Assembly: GCF_003149455.1 (NCBI RefSeq)
Contig: NZ_QFFK01000005.1
Span: 1 to 64,000, forward strand
From: Chitinophaga deserti
Lineage (GTDB): Bacteria; Bacteroidota; Bacteroidia; Chitinophagales; Chitinophagaceae
Reading direction: 5' to 3'
DNA length: 64,000 nucleotides
A program made the translations under genes and the position numbers. This document shows positions 16,107 through 25,078 of this stretch, in pieces; the stretch's first letter is position 1; every line of letters starts with the position of its first letter. Below the pieces are notes generated by a model. It worked only from the letters and a program-made list of their open reading frames with translations, was not told where the DNA came from and made no database searches.

Positions 16107-16949
16107 TCAGGAGAAATACCGTTCCACCGGAAAGCAATGAACATCAGGTACTTCGCGGAAGGAATCGGTTGTGTAAATTTCATCTACATTTTCGATGGTA
16201 GTGCCTTTACTAAAAATGCCATGACTCACTGCGAGTATTACGCGCGCAGCTCCTTTTTCTTTCAGTAGTTTGGCCGTACCGGCAAAAGTGCCGCCCCCGT
16301 CACAGATATCATCCGCAATGATGCAGGTTTTTCCATTCAATGTGGTGGCGTTGGTTTTAAATCCGGATAAGGCGCCTGTATGCACATCCCGCTCCTTCAT
16401 ACATTCCACGATATCTGTAGTGCCAACATATTTGGCGAGGGAATAGATCTTTTTCAATGCACCGCCGTCGGGGGATACGAGGGTTATTTGTTCCCCGGGC
16501 CGCTGTTGCTGATAGTGATCCAGCACATCTTTCATAAAACGGTGGTTCTCTACGGCATAAGCACGGTCTACCAACGCAGTGGTTACTTCGGAGTGCGGGT
16601 CAAAGATGCGTACTTTCCGGAACTGCGCCTGGTTCAATACAGCTGCAATCACTTTCAGGGAAAAGGGTTCTCCCGGGCGCATCACCCGGTCCATTCGTGC
16701 TGCGGTGAGATAAGTAATATCTGCCCGGATGTCGGAAAACTCCAGGTGAGAAAGGGCCTGTTGTGCAAACAGGAGCAGCAGCAGATCGTTACCATCATTT
16801 AACCGGGTAAGGATGCGTACCGGCGTCTGCCTGTCCTGATCCGCAATAGCGGAAGCATTGATTTTAAGATGCGGCTGCCCGTCGGGGAAGCGCATCGTTT
16901 CTACCGGTATATCCGATTTATCAGGGTGTATGAGGTGAAGCGTCAGCAT
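16107..16949 (-). CDS. PRPP synthetase family protein (short form)
   Basis: A 280-residue member of the ribose-phosphate pyrophosphokinase family, about 30 residues shorter than housekeeping Prs. Matching segments are FPDGQPHLKI, ITYLTAARMDR, RIFDPHSEV (metal/ATP His), LVSPDGGALKKI, and the PRPP-binding loop IIADDICDGGGTFAGTA near residue 215. It would move pyrophosphate from ATP to ribose 5-phosphate, or possibly to another ribose phosphate such as ADP-ribose, as in the phage NARP1 enzyme Adps. Its start overlaps the kptA stop by seven bases. PRPP is a substrate of the NadV enzyme in the same operon. Confidence 0.85.
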   Translation of the reverse strand: MLTLHLIHPDKSDIPVETMRFPDGQPHLKINASAIADQDRQTPVRILTRLNDGNDLLLLLFAQQALSHLEFSDIRADITYLTAARMDRVMRPGEPFSLKVIAAVLNQAQFRKVRIFDPHSEVTTALVDRAYAVENHRFMKDVLDHYQQQRPGEQITLVSPDGGALKKIYSLAKYVGTTDIVECMKERDVHTGALSGFKTNATTLNGKTCIIADDICDGGGTFAGTAKLLKEKGAARVILAVSHGIFSKGTTIENVDEIYTTDSFREVPDVHCFPVERYFS

Positions 16950-17503
16950 GGTGTTGCATTAAAGGGTTCGAGAAATTGCGGTGGCACGGCATCAGTAAGC
17001 CAAACGCCATTGTCGCTCAGATGAAAAACATGTCCCTGCCTGTGCATGTCGCCACTGCGGACCAGCAGGATTACCGGTTTGCCTCTGCGTGAACCTACCT
17101 GTGTGGCGGTATGGAGGTCTGCACTGAGGTGTACGTGCATGCGGTCCATTTTTTGAAGCCCGCCGGTAAGGATGGGTTCCATGAACCTCTGCACCGTACC
17201 GTGGTACAGGATATCGGGCGGTTCTACCGCCGGGAGGTCCAGCGATACTTCCACCGAATGCCCCTGCGAGGCCCGGATGGCCGACTGGTCGGCATTGAGT
17301 GCAAAGCGTTGTTTGTCGTTGGTGCGTACGATCTCCAGCAGTTCTTCACGTGAGATCTTTTTACCTGCGGCAGCGCACTTATCCAGCAGTTCAGTTATGG
17401 ATGCCCATCCCTGCGGATCAAGCTGCAGGCCTATCTTTTCTGGCTGGTGGCGCAGGATGAGACTGAGGAATTTACTGTTATGTTTATGTGGGTCGGAAGA
17501 CAT
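16943..17503 (-). CDS. kptA: RNA 2'-phosphotransferase KptA/Tpt1
   Basis: A 186-residue Tpt1/KptA protein of usual length. The family transfers a 2'-phosphate from RNA to NAD+, releasing nicotinamide and ADP-ribose 1'',2''-cyclic phosphate. Seen are KFLSLILRHQPEKIGL (Arg-His of the active site), WASITELL, TNDKQRFAL, ILYHGT, MHVHLSAD, RRGKPVILLV and NGVWLTDAVPPQFL. It lies 12 bases after nadV and overlaps prs, so it is translated as part of the NAD operon. Its bacterial substrate is not settled; placement beside NAD salvage genes fits its use of NAD+. Confidence 0.92.
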   Translation of the reverse strand: MSSDPHKHNSKFLSLILRHQPEKIGLQLDPQGWASITELLDKCAAAGKKISREELLEIVRTNDKQRFALNADQSAIRASQGHSVEVSLDLPAVEPPDILYHGTVQRFMEPILTGGLQKMDRMHVHLSADLHTATQVGSRRGKPVILLVRSGDMHRQGHVFHLSDNGVWLTDAVPPQFLEPFNATPC

Positions 17504-17515
17504 TTTCTTTTGGGT

Positions 17516-19030
17516 TTAAGCCAATATTTCAGCGGCCCGTGGTTTTAGTTCCAGTTCCAGGTTGGCCTGGATGCGGGCGCGGATATCGGCGAGGGTATAT
17601 TCTACGGTAATTGTGCCGTCGCGGAAAACAGTCTGCAGTTCTCCCCGGGCTTCTTCTTCCCAGGTGCACTCGTCTTTCATTTCCAGCTTGCCGGTTTCGG
17701 GATTGATGTATACCTGTAACAGTCCTTTGGCGGAATTCTTGGTGCCATCGTCTGTTTTGGGAGCTTTGAAGATGTTGCGGCCTACACCGTTGATTTCGCC
17801 ATAGGTTGCTTTCATGGCGAAGCCGAAGGTGTCGCGGGTTACGTATTCGTAAGTAAAGGAACCGATACCCAGCACTACGTTGTAGCTGGCGAAGCCTTTT
17901 TCTTTCAGGCGTTCCAGTATGGCTTCCTGGCGCTCGGTGGTAATACTGTCTCCATAAATAAGGCCGATGTGACCATCCAGCAGTTTAAAGCCGCGCGGGG
18001 TAATAGTGCCGCCGAATATCTCCCACATGCATTCGATAGCGCCTTTAAATTCAGGTGTGCCAACAGGAGCGTCAGGATCTCCGGCAATGATTTTTACCGG
18101 GTCGCCACTATCCGGACGAATCACCACTTTCCCATCACGCGCCAGTATTTTCTCTTTCAGTTGCGGGAGGAAGTCGGTGATCACCTGCCAGAAGTCCCAG
18201 GTATCACTCACAATGGATACGATACCTGCCGGGTATACTTTGGTGATGAGCCTTTCGAAAGTGGCAATCTCACCATCTTCCGTGCCCATACACATTACAC
18301 TGTGCTCTGTGGCTGGAACAGAGCCGCCTACCAGCTCTTTGGTGGCATCAGCCCCGTAATACTGTTCCAGGAAGTCGATGGCAGGAATGGTATCGGTTCC
18401 GGCAAAGCTCAGCAGGTGACCGGCCCCGCTCATAAGAGCGTCTTCAATTCCACTCATGCCGCGGAAAGAGAAGTCGTGCCCCTGCCAGGGAATGAAGCTC
18501 TTGTCTTCACCCACTGTTTCATCTGCATAGCGGGTAAAGGTTTTAAGATAACGGAATGCGGTGGTGGCGGAAGTGGATGGCTTCCAGAGCACGGCGCTCA
18601 GGAGTGTTTCCAGCATATTGGTGAGCCAGAAGAATTCCGGTTTGGTATTGCGGATGGTGAAAAACGGTACGCGCATGGGTACCAGGCTCCCTTCAGGCAA
18701 TGCCTTGATCTCAAGAGGCAGGTATCCGAGGTCGTGCAGGTCGGCAATGTGCTGATAGGGGATACTGTCTTTCCCGAGGTAGTTATCCATACGGCGGGCG
18801 TATTGCGCCAGTACTTCATCTTTAGGCAGTCGGAAGAATTGCTCGTTGAACTGACGGATGAGGTACTCCTTCATGAAATACTGCAGTCCGAAGAAAACCA
18901 TTTCGCGTATGTCGGCATCGCGGGATTTGCGTGGGGTTAGGTTGGAATATACAAGGGTGGTGCCTTCCGGGTACTGGAATTTGTGGCCCACTTTGTAGCC
19001 GTCTTTGAGGAGGATTGGAGCGATGTTCAT
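17516..19030 (-). CDS. nadV: Nicotinamide phosphoribosyltransferase (NadV/NAMPT type)
   Basis: A 504-residue enzyme of NAMPT length. It would join nicotinamide and PRPP to give nicotinamide mononucleotide in NAD salvage. Recognised NAMPT segments are DGYKVGHKFQYPEGTTLVYS, FFGLQYFMKEYL, HDFSFRGMSGIEDA, FAGTDTIPAIDFLEQYY, VPATEHSVMCMG (catalytic His), SIVSDTWDFW, VIRPDSGDP, and LIYGDSITTERQEAIL. The alternative is the phage Namat activity, which uses ADP-ribose pyrophosphate and is carried by NadV homologues paired with a Prs homologue. The gene starts two bases after nrtR. Confidence 0.9.
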   Translation of the reverse strand: MNIAPILLKDGYKVGHKFQYPEGTTLVYSNLTPRKSRDADIREMVFFGLQYFMKEYLIRQFNEQFFRLPKDEVLAQYARRMDNYLGKDSIPYQHIADLHDLGYLPLEIKALPEGSLVPMRVPFFTIRNTKPEFFWLTNMLETLLSAVLWKPSTSATTAFRYLKTFTRYADETVGEDKSFIPWQGHDFSFRGMSGIEDALMSGAGHLLSFAGTDTIPAIDFLEQYYGADATKELVGGSVPATEHSVMCMGTEDGEIATFERLITKVYPAGIVSIVSDTWDFWQVITDFLPQLKEKILARDGKVVIRPDSGDPVKIIAGDPDAPVGTPEFKGAIECMWEIFGGTITPRGFKLLDGHIGLIYGDSITTERQEAILERLKEKGFASYNVVLGIGSFTYEYVTRDTFGFAMKATYGEINGVGRNIFKAPKTDDGTKNSAKGLLQVYINPETGKLEMKDECTWEEEARGELQTVFRDGTITVEYTLADIRARIQANLELELKPRAAEILA

Positions 19031-19032
19031 AA

Positions 19033-19710
19033 CTAAAGGTTTAAATGAAAATGCTGCGGTAACAGCTTTTTGTTGAAATTATAATAATCTGCAGGCCTGT
19101 TTTGGAGGCCTTCCTTTTTTTCGCCGGTGAGTTCTACAAAACCGGCATCGAGGATTTTACGGCGGAAATTGCGGCGGTCAATAGAATGACCGAGAATGCA
19201 TTCATAAAGATCCTGCAGCTCGGGCATGGTAAAATTTTCATCCAGCAGTTCGAAGCCAACGGGCTGATAGAGGATTTTGGCACGGAGGCGTTCTTGTGCA
19301 GCAGAGAGTATCTGCCGGTGGTCGAAGCCCAGTACAGGAATATCCGTTACCGGGAACCAACGTACGTCGTTAGCCATTTTTCCTGCCACAGCTGTTAACT
19401 TACCCTGGCTTACCAGTGCAAAATGCGCTACTGATATCACCCGGCCCCGGGGATCGCGGTTGGGTGTATCGAAAGTATACAGCTGTTCGAGATAGATGGA
19501 ACGTAGACCCAGCTTGGTATCCAGTATCCTGCGGCAGGCTTCTGCCAGTGTTTCTTCCAGCCCTACAAACGCTCCGGGGAGGGTCCAGCCATTTTTAAAC
19601 GGGGCCTCTTTCCGGTTAAGCAGGAGTACTGACAAAGCCTTATCCTGGTAACCGAAAACCACCAGGTCGGTGGCCAGCGCCGGATTTTTATATGTATGAA
19701 ATGCAGGCAT
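19033..19710 (-). CDS. nrtR: NrtR-type Nudix transcriptional regulator
   Basis: A 225-residue repressor of NAD metabolism. Residues about 10-145 are a Nudix domain (FKNGWTLPGAFVGLEETLAEA). Its Nudix box is degenerate: the catalytic REUxEE region reads RRILDTKLGL, as expected for NrtR sensors that bind ADP-ribose without hydrolysing it efficiently. Residues about 150-225 form the winged-helix part (LQDLYECILGHSIDRRNFRRKIL, NRPADYYNF). It is the first gene of the operon and an inverted repeat lies 6 bases ahead of its start, which suggests autoregulation. ADP-ribose as effector is family knowledge. Confidence 0.9.
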   Translation of the reverse strand: MPAFHTYKNPALATDLVVFGYQDKALSVLLLNRKEAPFKNGWTLPGAFVGLEETLAEACRRILDTKLGLRSIYLEQLYTFDTPNRDPRGRVISVAHFALVSQGKLTAVAGKMANDVRWFPVTDIPVLGFDHRQILSAAQERLRAKILYQPVGFELLDENFTMPELQDLYECILGHSIDRRNFRRKILDAGFVELTGEKKEGLQNRPADYYNFNKKLLPQHFHLNL

Positions 19711-19933: not shown

Positions 19934-20872
19934 ATGAAAACGTGTGTATTATTCCTTAAGTTGATCCGGTGGCCGAACCTGATTATTATTTTTCTTACGC
20001 AGTGGCTTTTTCAATACTGTGTGATCCGTCCATTATTACTGGAAGCCGGTCTTCAGCCACAGGTAGGCCTCTCAGAATTTATCATGATTTCAATGGCGTA
20101 TATGCTGGTAGCAGCCGCGGGGTATGTCATCAACGATTATTTTGATTTGAATATTGATACGGTGAATAAGCCCGATAAGGTATTTATCACCCGGGGCATC
20201 AGCAGGGGCGGAGCATTGGGAGCATATGGCGCGATGAATATTGCTGCCATGGTGCTGGCTGCATTTGTCAGCCGTTCCCTGCAAAGCTGGGCACCTTTGT
20301 ATTGTATCCTGGGCTGCGTGGTGCTGCTGTTCGGATATTCTGCTTTCTTTAAAAAACGGTTCCTCATCGGTAACATCCTCGTTGCGGGTATTTCTGCTTC
20401 GGCCATGCCGGTACTGTCCCTTTCTGAAGCAGGGGCAAACGGACTGTTCCCCGAAACCTTACGTTATATCACCCTTTATACTTTCATCTATACCGGCTTT
20501 GCATTCATTATTTCTTTTGCACGCGAGCTGGTAAAAGATCTGGAAGATGTGGAGGGCGACCGTCAGTATGGCGGCCGCACCATGCCCATTGTATTGGGGG
20601 CACGTACCGCACATTGGATTGTAGCAGGCAGCCTTTCCTGTGTGATCGGTGTTATTGCGGCGCTGCAACCCTTCCTTTGGGCACGTGAGGGCGCTACGCC
20701 TATGCTGTCGCTGTATTCCATTTGTCTGGTCATGCTTCCGCTGGCATGGATACTCCGGAAAGTATTCGGCGCCCGGGGCGGGAAAGATTACCATCAGCTC
20801 AGTACATATATCAAGCTGGTGATGCTCACCGGTATATTATCCATGTTATTTATCCAGTTCATGATTCTCTGA
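19934..20872 (+). CDS. UbiA family prenyltransferase
   Basis: A 312-residue integral membrane protein with eight to nine helices. The two Asp motifs of UbiA enzymes are seen: NDYFDLNIDTVNKPDK near residue 73 (NDxxDxxxD) and KDLEDVEGDRQYGGRTMP near 200 (DxxxD). It moves a prenyl chain from its diphosphate onto an acceptor. The first segment (LIRWPNLIIIFLTQWL) resembles the geranylgeranylglycerol-phosphate synthase-like subgroup found in Bacteroidota. The acceptor is unknown. TATCCTTG just ahead of the ATG is near the -7 consensus. It is the first gene of an operon of three. Confidence 0.88.
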   Translation: MKTCVLFLKLIRWPNLIIIFLTQWLFQYCVIRPLLLEAGLQPQVGLSEFIMISMAYMLVAAAGYVINDYFDLNIDTVNKPDKVFITRGISRGGALGAYGAMNIAAMVLAAFVSRSLQSWAPLYCILGCVVLLFGYSAFFKKRFLIGNILVAGISASAMPVLSLSEAGANGLFPETLRYITLYTFIYTGFAFIISFARELVKDLEDVEGDRQYGGRTMPIVLGARTAHWIVAGSLSCVIGVIAALQPFLWAREGATPMLSLYSICLVMLPLAWILRKVFGARGGKDYHQLSTYIKLVMLTGILSMLFIQFMIL

Positions 20873-20882
20873 AAACCGGTCA

Positions 20883-21911
20883 ATGAATATATTTCAATTC
20901 GGGAGTAGTGTTGTGTCTACCGTGCTGCGGGTAATGTCTGAGCGGAAGAAGGAGGCCCCCCGCGCGGAGGCGCTTCTTTCGAAGCTGGAGGCACAATTTG
21001 GCGGACGCCTTCCCGAAGAAGCACGCCGCAAGGTGATTGTGAGCTATAGTATTTACCAGCCCATGATCATTGATGCGTTTACGGCCCTCCGTGGCCGCGC
21101 CTCCACTGAGGAGGAGAAAGAACGCCTCATCCTGTATTTTATCTGCAGCGGCGCCTTCGACGATTTTATTGACCGTAACGAACTGAGTGCCGAGGATCTC
21201 GATCTTATCTCTTTTCAGCCGGAGAAATTCCAGCCCCGCCGTATAGAAGAGCAGCTGTTTTTACATTGCCACCTTGCTTTAAGGAATTACGTGCGCGACC
21301 AACAGGCGTACGACCAGGCGGCCCGCGGCCTCTTCCGTGCACAGGTAGATTCCGCTAAACAATCATTATCCACACCCGTACCGGAAGATGAATTGCTCCG
21401 CATCACACAGGAGAAAGGCGGATATGCCGTGCTGCTGTGCCACTTCTACCTGAATCACGACGCTTCGGAAGCGGAGCGTACCTGCTGGTACCGCATCGGG
21501 GGGATTATCCAGCTTACCAATGATTTATTCGATACCTGGAAAGATCTGCAGGCAGGCATGCAAACGCTGCCTACCCGCATGCGTGATGCACGTGCCTTCG
21601 GGGAATTCTTTTCCGGGCTCACCAGCGATATGATGGCTGCCGTGGCCGCCCTTCCTGTGCCGGAAGCCCGAAAACGCCCGTTCCTGCTTCGCATGATGGC
21701 GATCTGCTCTTTCGGTGATATGGCTATCCGCCAGCTGCGCAACCTCCAGGGCGATGCGCCCCTGCTGCCTGAGCTGGGCACGCTACCCCGGAAAGCACTT
21801 ATTATCGATATGGAAAAACCCGCCAACATCTGGCATTGCATGCGCTTCACCTGGCAACAATGCCTTGCCGGCAGCCGCATGATCTCTGCCGCTAAACCCC
21901 TCCCTGCATGA
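20883..21911 (+). CDS. Squalene/phytoene-synthase-like isoprenoid synthase homologue
   Basis: A 342-residue, mostly helical soluble protein. Two Asp-rich motifs face each other in order, as in class I isoprenoid synthases: FDDFIDRNE near residue 97 (DDxxD) and QLTNDLFDTWKDLQAGMQTLP split around residue 215. The second follows the squalene/phytoene synthase pattern QLTNxLxDxxxDxxxGxxxLP. It would bind Mg2+ and a prenyl diphosphate; head-to-head condensation or cyclisation is possible. It starts 10 bases after the UbiA gene and overlaps the next gene by four bases (ATGA). Overall similarity to known synthases outside the motifs is low, so the reaction is open. Confidence 0.6.
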   Translation: MNIFQFGSSVVSTVLRVMSERKKEAPRAEALLSKLEAQFGGRLPEEARRKVIVSYSIYQPMIIDAFTALRGRASTEEEKERLILYFICSGAFDDFIDRNELSAEDLDLISFQPEKFQPRRIEEQLFLHCHLALRNYVRDQQAYDQAARGLFRAQVDSAKQSLSTPVPEDELLRITQEKGGYAVLLCHFYLNHDASEAERTCWYRIGGIIQLTNDLFDTWKDLQAGMQTLPTRMRDARAFGEFFSGLTSDMMAAVAALPVPEARKRPFLLRMMAICSFGDMAIRQLRNLQGDAPLLPELGTLPRKALIIDMEKPANIWHCMRFTWQQCLAGSRMISAAKPLPA

Positions 21912-23053
21912 CCTTCCGGAAAATAGCCTGCTTACTTTTCATCCTTTTATATGCATTGCCTTCCCCGGCGCAGCGCGATACCCTCACGGCCAGGCTACTC
22001 CGCGAAATCGCAGCGCAACAGGTCATGGCAGACAGCTTCTACTTCACAGGAATGTTCCCCAGTATGCGCTATTACGGCAGTCCGGGCGGGAAAATGGAGC
22101 ACGATAACAACGTGTTTTTCACCGGGCTCATCGCCATGACATTAGGCGAATTGCAGCAGGATCTTTCCGGGGCCGACAGTATCCTTTGCCAGCAGATCCG
22201 CTCCCGTGCCCGCACTTCGTTCCCATACTTCCGCCACCGCTCAGGCCGCAGTACGTATAACTTCTGGAAAACCAATCCCCGAACGGTATTTCCCAACTCC
22301 CGTTTTCTAAACCTATTCGTAAAATGGCACTCACTGCCCGATGATATCGACGATACATCCATCCTCCTGATGGCGATGGAAGCAGATTCTGCCACTGCTC
22401 GTGCGGCAAAGGCGCTCATGGCACAGCATGCCAATACGGTAAGCTATGGCGTGCGCAATACGTTTAAAAAGTACAGAGATATCCCGGCGTACTCCACCTG
22501 GTTCGGGAAAAGTATGCCTATAGATTTTGATGCCTGTGTATTGGCCAACACGCTGTATTTCATGCATGTGTATAATATGGCAGACGGCCGGGCCGATAGT
22601 GCTTCCGTTCAATTGTTGGAAGCGTTCATCCGCAACCGTGAGTACATCTCGCATCCCGCTTATATTTCCCCGCATTACGCCCGCTCTCCCGTATTGATCT
22701 ATCACTTTGCACGCCTTATAGGCCGCTTCCCCATTCCGGAACTGGTACAGCATAAAGCGCAGCTGGCGGAAGATGCAAGGCTGCTCATGGCTGCTTCGGA
22801 AGATGATATGGATAAAGTAATCCTGTCTACCGCGTTGCTTTGGCTGGGGGAAAAGGCGCCTGAACTCGATTTGACGGGTATCAACACCAATGGCAGCTTC
22901 GTGTTCTTTGTTGCAGGGTTCAATTCATTATTACCGAATCCCTACAAGCGCATGTTCTCCGGCTATCATCTTATCAGTTACTATTACCGGTGCCCAGCCT
23001 ACAACCAGGTATTGCTGTTGCAGCATCAGTTGCTACGGAAGAAGCTACAATAA
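21908..23053 (+). CDS. Exported alpha-barrel-like protein with a DxDD motif
   Basis: A 381-residue protein with a signal peptide (residues 1 to about 21, ending PSPAQ). The mature chain looks all-helical. LPDDIDDTSILLMAME near residue 145 contains DIDDT, the form DxDDT used as the proton donor in class II terpene cyclases such as squalene-hopene cyclase. No QW repeats are obvious, so it may instead be another alpha/alpha-toroid protein. Export would place it away from cytosolic prenyl diphosphates. Its translation is coupled to the isoprenoid-synthase-like gene by ATGA overlap, so the two very likely act in one pathway. Confidence 0.55.
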   Translation: MTFRKIACLLFILLYALPSPAQRDTLTARLLREIAAQQVMADSFYFTGMFPSMRYYGSPGGKMEHDNNVFFTGLIAMTLGELQQDLSGADSILCQQIRSRARTSFPYFRHRSGRSTYNFWKTNPRTVFPNSRFLNLFVKWHSLPDDIDDTSILLMAMEADSATARAAKALMAQHANTVSYGVRNTFKKYRDIPAYSTWFGKSMPIDFDACVLANTLYFMHVYNMADGRADSASVQLLEAFIRNREYISHPAYISPHYARSPVLIYHFARLIGRFPIPELVQHKAQLAEDARLLMAASEDDMDKVILSTALLWLGEKAPELDLTGINTNGSFVFFVAGFNSLLPNPYKRMFSGYHLISYYYRCPAYNQVLLLQHQLLRKKLQ

Positions 23054-23054
23054 A

Positions 23055-23087
23055 AGCAAAGCCCCGGAGATTCTCCGGGGCTTTGCT
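23055..23087. terminator. Terminator of the isoprenoid-type operon
   Basis: AGCAAAGCCCCGGAGA and its exact complement form a long GC-rich stem with a minimal loop just after the stop. T runs are short on both sides. It lies between two convergent operons and can serve both. Confidence 0.75.
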
Positions 23088-23111: not shown

Positions 23112-24443
23112 TCAGGCTACGGGGGGCGTTTTGCCCAGTTCTTCGATTCTTTCACGGCTGGTGTTTACCTGCGCACGCAGATCGCTCAGCAGGGAATACA
23201 GCCCAAAGTAGGTACGATTGATGTACAGCGAATGCCGGCTGCCACGGGCCACCTTCGATTCGCGGACTTCCTTCAGGTTGTAGAGATAATCCATGTAGGC
23301 ATAAATCTCGTTGAAATAGGCTTCGTCACCGAAATCGAAATCCTGCACGGTGAAGGGCAGTGTTAGCATCCGGATCATTTCCTGGAACAGCCCGGAGAAG
23401 AACACGATGTCTTTCTCGGTATCACTGGGGTGTATCATTTCCAGCTGCGTATAGATCTCGCGGCGGCGGGCTTCATCTGCCAGCACCTCCTTATCGGTGA
23501 GGTGGAAATAATTGACGTAAAAATCTTCGGGGATCTCTTTCACACAACCGAAATCGAAGATGCCCACCGTACCGTCTTCCCGCAGCAAAAAGTTACCGGG
23601 GTGAGGGTCTGCGTGTACTTTACGGAGGTGATGCACCTGGAACTGGTAGAAGTCCCACAGGGCCTGGCCGATCTTATTCCGCACTTCCTGCGTGGGGTTC
23701 GTTTCGAGGAATTCTTTCAGGTGCTGGCCATCCAGCCAGTCCATGGTAATAATCCTGTCAGACGAAAGCTCCGGGTAGTACCGGGGAAACACCAGATTGG
23801 GGATATGTGCGCAGCTGGCACTCAGTTCCTGCGAGCGGCGGAGCTCCAGTTTGTAATCGGTTTCTTCCAGCAGCTTGGTTTCAATTTCTTCGAAATACTT
23901 ATCCATATCCACTTCGTTCATGCCCACGATCCTTACGGCAAAGGGCTTTACGATGCGGAGGTCGGATTTAACACTGCTGGCCACACCGGGGTATTGGATC
24001 TTCACGGCCAGCGGGTGACCGTCTTTTTCCGCTTTGTGTACCTGGCCGATGGAAGCGGCATTGCTCGCTTTCATATCGAACTGGTCGAACAGCCGGGTAG
24101 GGGATTGGCCAAGTGTTTTGATGAAGGTGTTGACAACCAGTGGGCCTGATAACGGTGGTGCGCTGTACTGGCTCATGGCGAATTTGGCGGTATATGCTTT
24201 GGGAAGCATGCCACGGTCCATACTGAGCATCTGCGCAACTTTGAGGGCGCTGCCTTTCAGGTGGCTGAGGGTGTCGTAAATATCTTCCGCATTATCCTGG
24301 TGAAGCTGCTCTTTAGACACGGATGGGTCCATGAGCTTGCGGGTGTAATGTTTGATATAGTTGGTGCCTACTTTCAGCCCGGTAGTCACGAAGCGGCCGG
24401 CCCGCTCCACTTTGCCGGTGGGGAGGTGTTGTTGTTCTTTCAT
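23112..24443 (-). CDS. AarF/ABC1/UbiB family atypical kinase
   Basis: A 443-residue protein kinase-like protein of the ABC1/UbiB family, linked to quinone and other isoprenoid lipid handling. Seen are the family's KxGQ-like segment (LKGSALKVAQMLSMD), the Ala-rich loop region ASNAASIGQVHKAEKDG, the ATP-contact LAVKIQYPG, and the catalytic HADPHPGNFLLREDG and GIFDFGCVKEI. No C-terminal membrane helices are obvious, unlike Escherichia UbiB. It follows a TetR-fold gene by eight bases. Convergent neighbours encode prenyl-lipid-type enzymes. Confidence 0.88.
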   Translation of the reverse strand: MKEQQHLPTGKVERAGRFVTTGLKVGTNYIKHYTRKLMDPSVSKEQLHQDNAEDIYDTLSHLKGSALKVAQMLSMDRGMLPKAYTAKFAMSQYSAPPLSGPLVVNTFIKTLGQSPTRLFDQFDMKASNAASIGQVHKAEKDGHPLAVKIQYPGVASSVKSDLRIVKPFAVRIVGMNEVDMDKYFEEIETKLLEETDYKLELRRSQELSASCAHIPNLVFPRYYPELSSDRIITMDWLDGQHLKEFLETNPTQEVRNKIGQALWDFYQFQVHHLRKVHADPHPGNFLLREDGTVGIFDFGCVKEIPEDFYVNYFHLTDKEVLADEARRREIYTQLEMIHPSDTEKDIVFFSGLFQEMIRMLTLPFTVQDFDFGDEAYFNEIYAYMDYLYNLKEVRESKVARGSRHSLYINRTYFGLYSLLSDLRAQVNTSRERIEELGKTPPVA

Positions 24444-24451
24444 AATGGTCG

Positions 24452-25078
24452 CTATTTCCGGGTGAACATGAATTTACCGAAATCGATCAGACTGTCGATC
24501 GTGTTACTGTGAATCAGCTCAAAGCTCAGGTTAACAGCCTTTTCAATGGCTGCATCCGTAAGCTCGAATTGTTCACTTCTGTCGCCGATCCAGTATTTGA
24601 GGACAAACAACGCCTGTACCCAGAATCCGTGTACGTATTGGTCGGAAATGTATTTCCTTTCCCTGATCTCGGAAGTGAGGTAACCTTCCTTAATCAGCCC
24701 GGAAGCGTAATCGTAAAATGCGCGCTTGAAAGTAGAAAGCTGCCCCAGCTGGCTGAGCGGGAGATGGGAGCGGCGGTACTGTTGCAGGATGTAGCTCCTG
24801 TCTTCTTTCAGTTTTTGAACCCAGAGGAAGTAGAAAGCGAGGAGTTTTTCCCGGGAGGTATACTGCCGGTAAGTTTCATCATCTTTCAGCTGGTCAACCG
24901 TTTGCTGGAAGTATTCCAGCCAGATGTCGGCTTCAAGGCTGTCGAAATGGCTGTAGTGCTGGTAAAAGTCCGCCTCCGGCACATCGAGGATTTTGCAGAG
25001 TGCGAATACGGAAACAGGCGCCTGGCCGTTTTCGAGCCAATAGCGTTTGTACGCATCGCGAATGGATTGTTTTTCCAT
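24452..25078 (-). CDS. TetR-fold protein paired with the ABC1 kinase
   Basis: A 208-residue helical protein. The N-terminal helix-turn-helix reads SVFALCKILDVPEADFYQHYSHFDSLEADIW, shown here as known TetR-type features in residues 20-52 (FYQHYSHFDSLE). The C-terminal part is a ligand-binding-type helical bundle. It may repress its own operon. COQ9, a partner of the ABC1 kinase COQ8, also has a TetR-like fold, so a lipid-binding role is an alternative. The HTH looks weaker in basic residues than in standard TetR proteins. Confidence 0.7.
   Translation of the reverse strand: MEKQSIRDAYKRYWLENGQAPVSVFALCKILDVPEADFYQHYSHFDSLEADIWLEYFQQTVDQLKDDETYRQYTSREKLLAFYFLWVQKLKEDRSYILQQYRRSHLPLSQLGQLSTFKRAFYDYASGLIKEGYLTSEIRERKYISDQYVHGFWVQALFVLKYWIGDRSEQFELTDAAIEKAVNLSFELIHSNTIDSLIDFGKFMFTRK

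Follow-up and report, generated by a model that had tools for sequence, protein, structure and literature searches.

What would a bacterium make with a UbiA-family prenyltransferase, a protein bearing the Asp-rich motifs of isoprenoid synthases and an exported protein bearing the acid motif of class II terpene cyclases, when the three genes stand in a row? The question is raised by a locus of the soil bacterium Chitinophaga deserti, which lies in a stretch of 64,000 nucleotides of contig NZ_QFFK01000005.1 (the window). A preliminary description of this DNA had suggested an isoprenoid-type operon, acting on a prenyl lipid and having its last step outside the cytoplasm. Here we examine the proteins and their relatives, and propose how they might act together.

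Organization of the operon

The three open reading frames were re-found exactly where the preliminary description had placed them, all on the forward strand. P1 (19934..20872; 312 residues) belongs to the UbiA family, P2 (20883..21911; 342 residues) is a cytoplasmic protein resembling class I isoprenoid synthases, and P3 (21908..23053; 381 residues) is a predicted exported toroid resembling class II terpene cyclases. P1 and P2 are separated by 10 bp, and the ATGA overlap reported for the last two genes is seen in the sequence as a shared start/stop of P2 and P3 on the forward strand (21908..21911), which makes translational coupling of the pair likely. Just 3' of P3, in the interval that leads to a convergent ABC1-kinase gene, a terminator-like 15-bp perfect hairpin (about 23055..23087; computed fold energy -30.2 kcal/mol, z -8.6) closes the operon, and a pattern search near the operon for the Bacteroidota -33/-7 promoter found none. 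All three genes are maintained by purifying selection, as dN/dS is about 0.05-0.10 for P1, P2 and P3 where it is calculable; their counterparts in a record named Chitinophaga pinensis are 92-95% identical. In Chitinophaga sp. E66 (locus L007, 7056-10149) P1, P2 and P3 all appear frameshifted, with tblastn returning overlapping pieces, which probably reflects long-read error or decay. Carriage by a virus or phage was rejected, since the viral contigs searched held no relatives.

Of the flanking genes, an ABC1/UbiB-type atypical kinase and a TetR_C_23 regulator (23112-25078, reverse strand) face the operon in convergent orientation. Kinases of the UbiB type have links to prenyl lipids in other systems; the pair is conserved in the nearest Chitinophaga only and was not counted among the pathway members. 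On the other side (16107-19710, reverse strand) lies an NAD-salvage-like cluster encoding an NrtR-type Nudix regulator, a nicotinamide phosphoribosyltransferase, a KptA/Tpt1 RNA 2'-phosphotransferase and a PRPP-synthetase-like protein, in which KptA is of interest because it consumes NAD. At the level of the genome, the Pfam family SQS_PSY has no match, and neither a canonical squalene/phytoene synthase nor a squalene-hopene cyclase was matched. A carotenoid or hopanoid cluster can therefore be rejected, in agreement with the mismatch to such clusters that had been remarked on before.

P2 resembles class I isoprenoid synthases outside the assigned families

The second protein had been credited with both Asp-rich motifs of squalene and phytoene synthases, and it does contain them, as DDFID (residues 93-97; consensus DDxxD) and NDLFDTWKD (residues 213-221; consensus NDxxDxxxD). 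Across 41 homologs, residues D93, D97, D214, D217 and D221 do not vary, N213 is kept in all or nearly all, and K178 and K220 are also invariant or nearly so. Taken alone, P2 matches nothing in Pfam or NCBIfam and no PDB sequence convincingly, and its homologs reach known families only occasionally, with 3 of the 41 matching polyprenyl_synt (best 4e-4) and 7 matching SQS_PSY weakly (best E 0.024). When its profile was compared with that of canonical phytoene synthases, QLTNDLFDTWKDLQAGMQTLP aligned weakly, at the second motif only and with a probability of 5.6%, as against 0.7 and 0.1% for the controls.

Structural comparison places the protein more clearly. An AF2 model of P2 (pLDDT 79, pTM 0.79), computed like that of P3 from a shallow input alignment (7 rows for P2 and 5 for P3), was matched first by the dehydrosqualene synthase CrtM in Foldseek (E 2.6e-4), and in VIA-align by Sat1646 (Z 17.4) and the class IB synthase 6loo (Z 16.4), the best 50 rows of the latter search all being class I isoprenoid synthases or terpene synthases. 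The structure prediction called for in the preliminary description thus yields the expected class I match. Having both Asp-rich motifs and an all-helical fold of class I, P2 is, judged by its model, a class I isoprenoid synthase outside the assigned families. With CrtM and the SQS-PSY family it shares both motifs, the fold and a QLTN...D...D...LP context, whereas the order DDxxD then NDxxDxxxD and the lack of a Pfam SQS_PSY match set it apart; the likeness to squalene/phytoene synthases therefore holds, in motifs and fold, for the wider class I superfamily but does not extend to SQS_PSY membership by sequence. A second P2 copy, 28% identical, is encoded elsewhere in the C. deserti genome (G000:C3), and in one other genome (G055; locus L104, 9849-11906) a tandem pair of P2 copies lies 5' of P3.

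P3 has the fold and acid network of class II terpene cyclases

The DIDDT motif that drew attention to the third protein occupies residues 146-150, and each of 34 homologs shares D146, D148 and D149. With other families added, D146 and D148 are kept in 41 of 41 relatives and D149 in 39, and N214 and Y257 are again found in all 41. P3 has no Pfam or NCBIfam match; SQHop_cyclase matches neither P3 nor any protein of its genome, and only one of the 34 homologs, at E 0.16. When a profile of the 34 relatives was compared with PDB sequences, two matches only were obtained, both drimenol synthases (DMS), with E values of 8e-4 (9mhs) and 8e-3, and the alignment sets PDDIDDT of P3 on PDDLDTT of DMS. The AF2 model is modest (pLDDT 62, pTM 0.70; built from five sequences), and its ten best Foldseek rows are all drimenol synthases. 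VIA-align ranks DMS (Z 17.3 over 263 residues), small squalene-hopene cyclases (15.8), merosterolic acid synthase MstE (15.5) and drimenyl diphosphate synthase (13.9) above glycosidase toroids (11-13). A DxDD motif and an alpha/alpha toroid (beta-domain) fold are thus both found in P3, at moderate model confidence, and P3 is, judged by its model, a class II terpene-cyclase-like toroid and a putative enzyme. The comparison with squalene-hopene cyclase that had been suggested stands as regards the class II toroid, but the nearest solved relative is drimenol synthase. P2 and P3 have therefore both given the fold matches whose absence would have told against the preliminary reading.

The residues on which catalysis depends in drimenol synthase point the same way. 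In AsDMS, the substitutions D331A/N, D333N and Y427F each abolish activity (PMC12365925), and in a HMMER alignment that we verified against the residue letters at Y373, R378, R380, R425 and Y426, residues D331, D333 and Y427 fall on D146, D148 and Y257 of P3. N214 sits where the acid-positioning Asn described for AstC (PMC13244436) would be expected. AsDMS is a HAD-TCbeta fusion (PDB 9M7D-F, 9MHS), whereas P3, which shares its toroid, its DxD(D/T)T motif in register and its catalytic Asp/Asp/Tyr, has no HAD phosphatase domain, the mature length aligning wholly to DMS residues 226-526, which are the TC domain only; it also differs in having a signal peptide and the canonical DxDD in place of DxDTT. 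In addition, R378 and Y426, which hold the diphosphate in AsDMS, correspond to M203 and H256 of P3 in the profile alignment, and because they are not kept a diphosphate is probably not the substrate, insofar as the uncertain alignment of this loop can be followed. MstE (6SBB-6SBG), likewise a class II cyclase with one beta domain, is close to P3 in size, and its substrate is a prenylated head group, such as a UbiA enzyme could supply. It is cyanobacterial and shares 11% identity only with P3, which differs in being exported and encoded beside a class I synthase.

P3 is predicted to be exported

The N-terminus of P3 (about residues 1-21) resembles a signal peptide, so that the export proposed for the third protein is upheld as a prediction. 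By a simple score other than SignalP (an 11-residue N-terminal window with a mean hydropathy of 2.1 or more), all 33 Chitinophagaceae relatives have such an N-terminus, compared with none of 7 relatives from two other families, of which five carry DxDD and two DxDC. Exported and cytosolic groups part cleanly in the P3 tree (support 100/100), and, as a distant outgroup did not fix the root between them, either state may be the older. The cytosolic relatives at loci L128 (7990-9060) and L129 (8039-9109) are those with DxDC in place of DxDD, and one of the two lies in a genome (G209) that has a DxDD copy as well.

The class II terpene cyclases known so far are cytoplasmic or face the cytoplasm, where they act on diphosphates, squalene or prenylated head groups. 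Neither a secreted class II cyclase, nor the families of P2 and P3, nor the combination of P1, P2 and P3 was found described in the open-licence literature searched. As the residues that hold a diphosphate are lost and free prenyl diphosphates are not expected where P3 would reside, a finished lipid is a likelier substrate for it than a diphosphate.

P1 is an operon-specific UbiA paralog

The assignment of the first gene to the UbiA prenyltransferases proved sound, as P1 matches Pfam UbiA with 99 bits (cut-off 34.2) and contains NDYFDxxID and DLEDxxGD, the NDxxDxxxD and DxxDxxxD motifs of the family, which are invariant in the alignment examined (A6). Its best NCBIfam models are a prenyltransferase and GGGP geranylgeranyltransferase, every one under cut-off. 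P1 aligns to several models of archaeal-type DGGGP synthase, likewise UbiA-family enzymes, yet it stays below every equivalog cut-off (174 bits at most, against 278 required for the DGGGP synthase equivalog) and is not part of the clade that the near-universal copy forms. A UbiA of the P1 kind is present in 182 of 195 Chitinophagaceae genomes, usually as a single copy, and the second UbiA of the C. deserti genome adjoins genes that we take, from inspection by eye, to be Maf-like, KdsC-like and DUF2520-like. In a tree of 39 UbiA sequences, one branch (support 100/98) divides all 28 unlinked copies from the operonic ones. The latter comprise a well supported Chitinophaga clade and some long-branched copies that belong to a single other genus, and P1 is therefore an operon-specific paralog and not the housekeeping UbiA.

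UbiA lies 5' of P2 in 7 of 7 Chitinophaga loci and also in a second genus (G067). Since its linkage to P2 or P3 is confined to a minority of genera, its role in the pathway can be stated with less confidence than that of P2 and P3 as a pair. In a further genome (G147; locus L173, 2461-5442), two UbiA genes directly adjoin P2. With regard to the acceptor, the C. deserti genome encodes a GGGP synthase, and Bacteroidetes GGGP synthases are reported to be active on G1P (PMC7852524), so that the possible acceptors for P1 include a glycerol-linked prenyl lipid.

P2 and P3 form the wider conserved unit

Of 195 Chitinophagaceae genomes, 67 contain P2 and 48 contain P3, with 40 having both, 27 only P2, 8 only P3 and 120 neither (odds ratio 22, Fisher p 5e-16, uncorrected for shared ancestry). 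Where both are present, the two genes stand head to tail in 16 genomes, which represent 11 genera, and another 3 genomes have them tail to tail. In a phylum-wide sample, 4 of 4 genomes of another family (f12) that have P3 also have P2, unlinked. The eight Chitinophagaceae genomes with P3 and no P2 match indicate that P3 may also act without P2. In three Chitinophaga loci (L005, L006 and L009) UbiA is 5' of P2 and P3 is not adjacent. The three-gene set of the preliminary description thus exists as an operon here, but the unit conserved more widely is the P2-P3 core. No extra pathway enzyme was found among the neighbors of P2 and P3 in other genera, which are housekeeping genes (aldehyde dehydrogenase, LepA, release factor, TyrS, phosphoglucomutase and alanine-racemase-N protein).

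A natural fusion bears on the topology. In Chitinophaga sp. SYP-B3965 (locus L004, 8001-10088), P2 and P3 are joined in frame as a protein of 695 residues, and where the P3 N-terminus begins the frame reads GTA, leaving no start codon there. The P3 signal peptide would then become an internal membrane span, and the fusion, if real (it comes from a single draft genome, where a base error is possible), therefore places P2 inside and P3 outside.

A proposed two-compartment pathway and its alternatives

We propose, with a probability of roughly 55%, that the operon specifies a two-compartment isoprenoid lipid pathway, in which P1 and P2 act on the cytoplasmic side and exported P3 performs a cyclization outside. 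The analysis shows the gene anatomy, the folds, the catalytic residues, the export signal and the linkage of P2 with P3, and from the sequence we infer the activities, the substrate, the order of the steps, the product and its nature as a membrane lipid. On the cytoplasmic side, P2, as the diphosphate-ionizing enzyme, and membrane-embedded P1 would turn a polyprenyl diphosphate into a neutral prenyl lipid, which would stay in the inner membrane. Secreted P3 would dock on the outer face of this membrane, where D148, tuned by D146 and Y257, would serve as the proton donor and protonate the distal double bond of the prenyl chain, which would then be cyclized as it is by drimenol synthase and merosterolic acid synthase.

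The same genes could be read as a route of two enzymes, in which P2, in the manner of YtpB or dehydrosqualene synthase, converts one or two prenyl diphosphates into a hydrocarbon, either linear or monocyclic, and exported P3 cyclizes it, UbiA being a genus-level addition that loads a product onto an acceptor. Such a route accords with the wide conservation of P2 with P3, with the resemblance of P2 to CrtM and class IB synthases and with the absence of a canonical SQS/PSY from the genome. It would also parallel the Bacillus sesquarterpene route, where a class I synthase (class IB YtpB; compare the 6loo match of P2) is likewise followed by a class II cyclase of the squalene-hopene cyclase type. 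That route, however, has no UbiA partner, and P2 is without any Pfam match; the Bacillus cyclase is not known to be secreted. Moreover, UbiA precedes P2 in every Chitinophaga locus, even without an adjacent P3, which ties it to P2, and G147 has two UbiA genes there. We therefore regard the two-enzyme route, which is the chief rival, as rather unlikely, though worth keeping in view.

Two further readings concern P3 alone. It could be a non-catalytic periplasmic protein that has kept the class II toroid to bind lipids or terpenoids, as its unusual location and the loss of the diphosphate-holding residues might suggest, and toroids such as transcobalamin, which appears in the lower VIA-align rows, also act as binders. 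Binding alone would not demand a D146/D148/N214/Y257 network that is invariant in all 41 relatives, and this reading seems improbable to us. We give hardly any credence to the idea that P3 belongs among the exported alpha/alpha-toroid enzymes, glycosidases or lyase-like, of the polysaccharide-using Bacteroidota and carries DIDDT by coincidence: GH105, GH88 and GH76 toroids do occur in its structural list, but clearly lower than the class II cyclases, no glycosidase family is matched, the sole sequence-profile match is drimenol synthase, whose catalytic motif aligns in register, and P3 is linked and fused to a class I isoprenoid synthase.

For the two-compartment pathway, the folds and the chemistry are of known kinds; what would be new, judged by the open-licence literature searched, is the gene combination, the two families without profiles and the secreted class II cyclase. 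Genome mining by family profiles would miss the pathway, because P2 and P3 are both without a match in Pfam and in NCBIfam. In its fullest form, which we put forward tentatively and at slightly less than even odds, the proposal is that an envelope terpenoid lipid new to science is widespread in Chitinophagaceae, fed by a new class I family and an operon-specific UbiA and completed beyond the cytoplasm by a secreted class II cyclase, the first of its kind. If this is true, a family of secreted cyclases that keep the acid network intact would mean that terpene cyclization on a finished lipid is possible in the periplasm, and would point to a sterol- or hopanoid-like lipid not yet described, in bacteria thought to be well charted for lipids.
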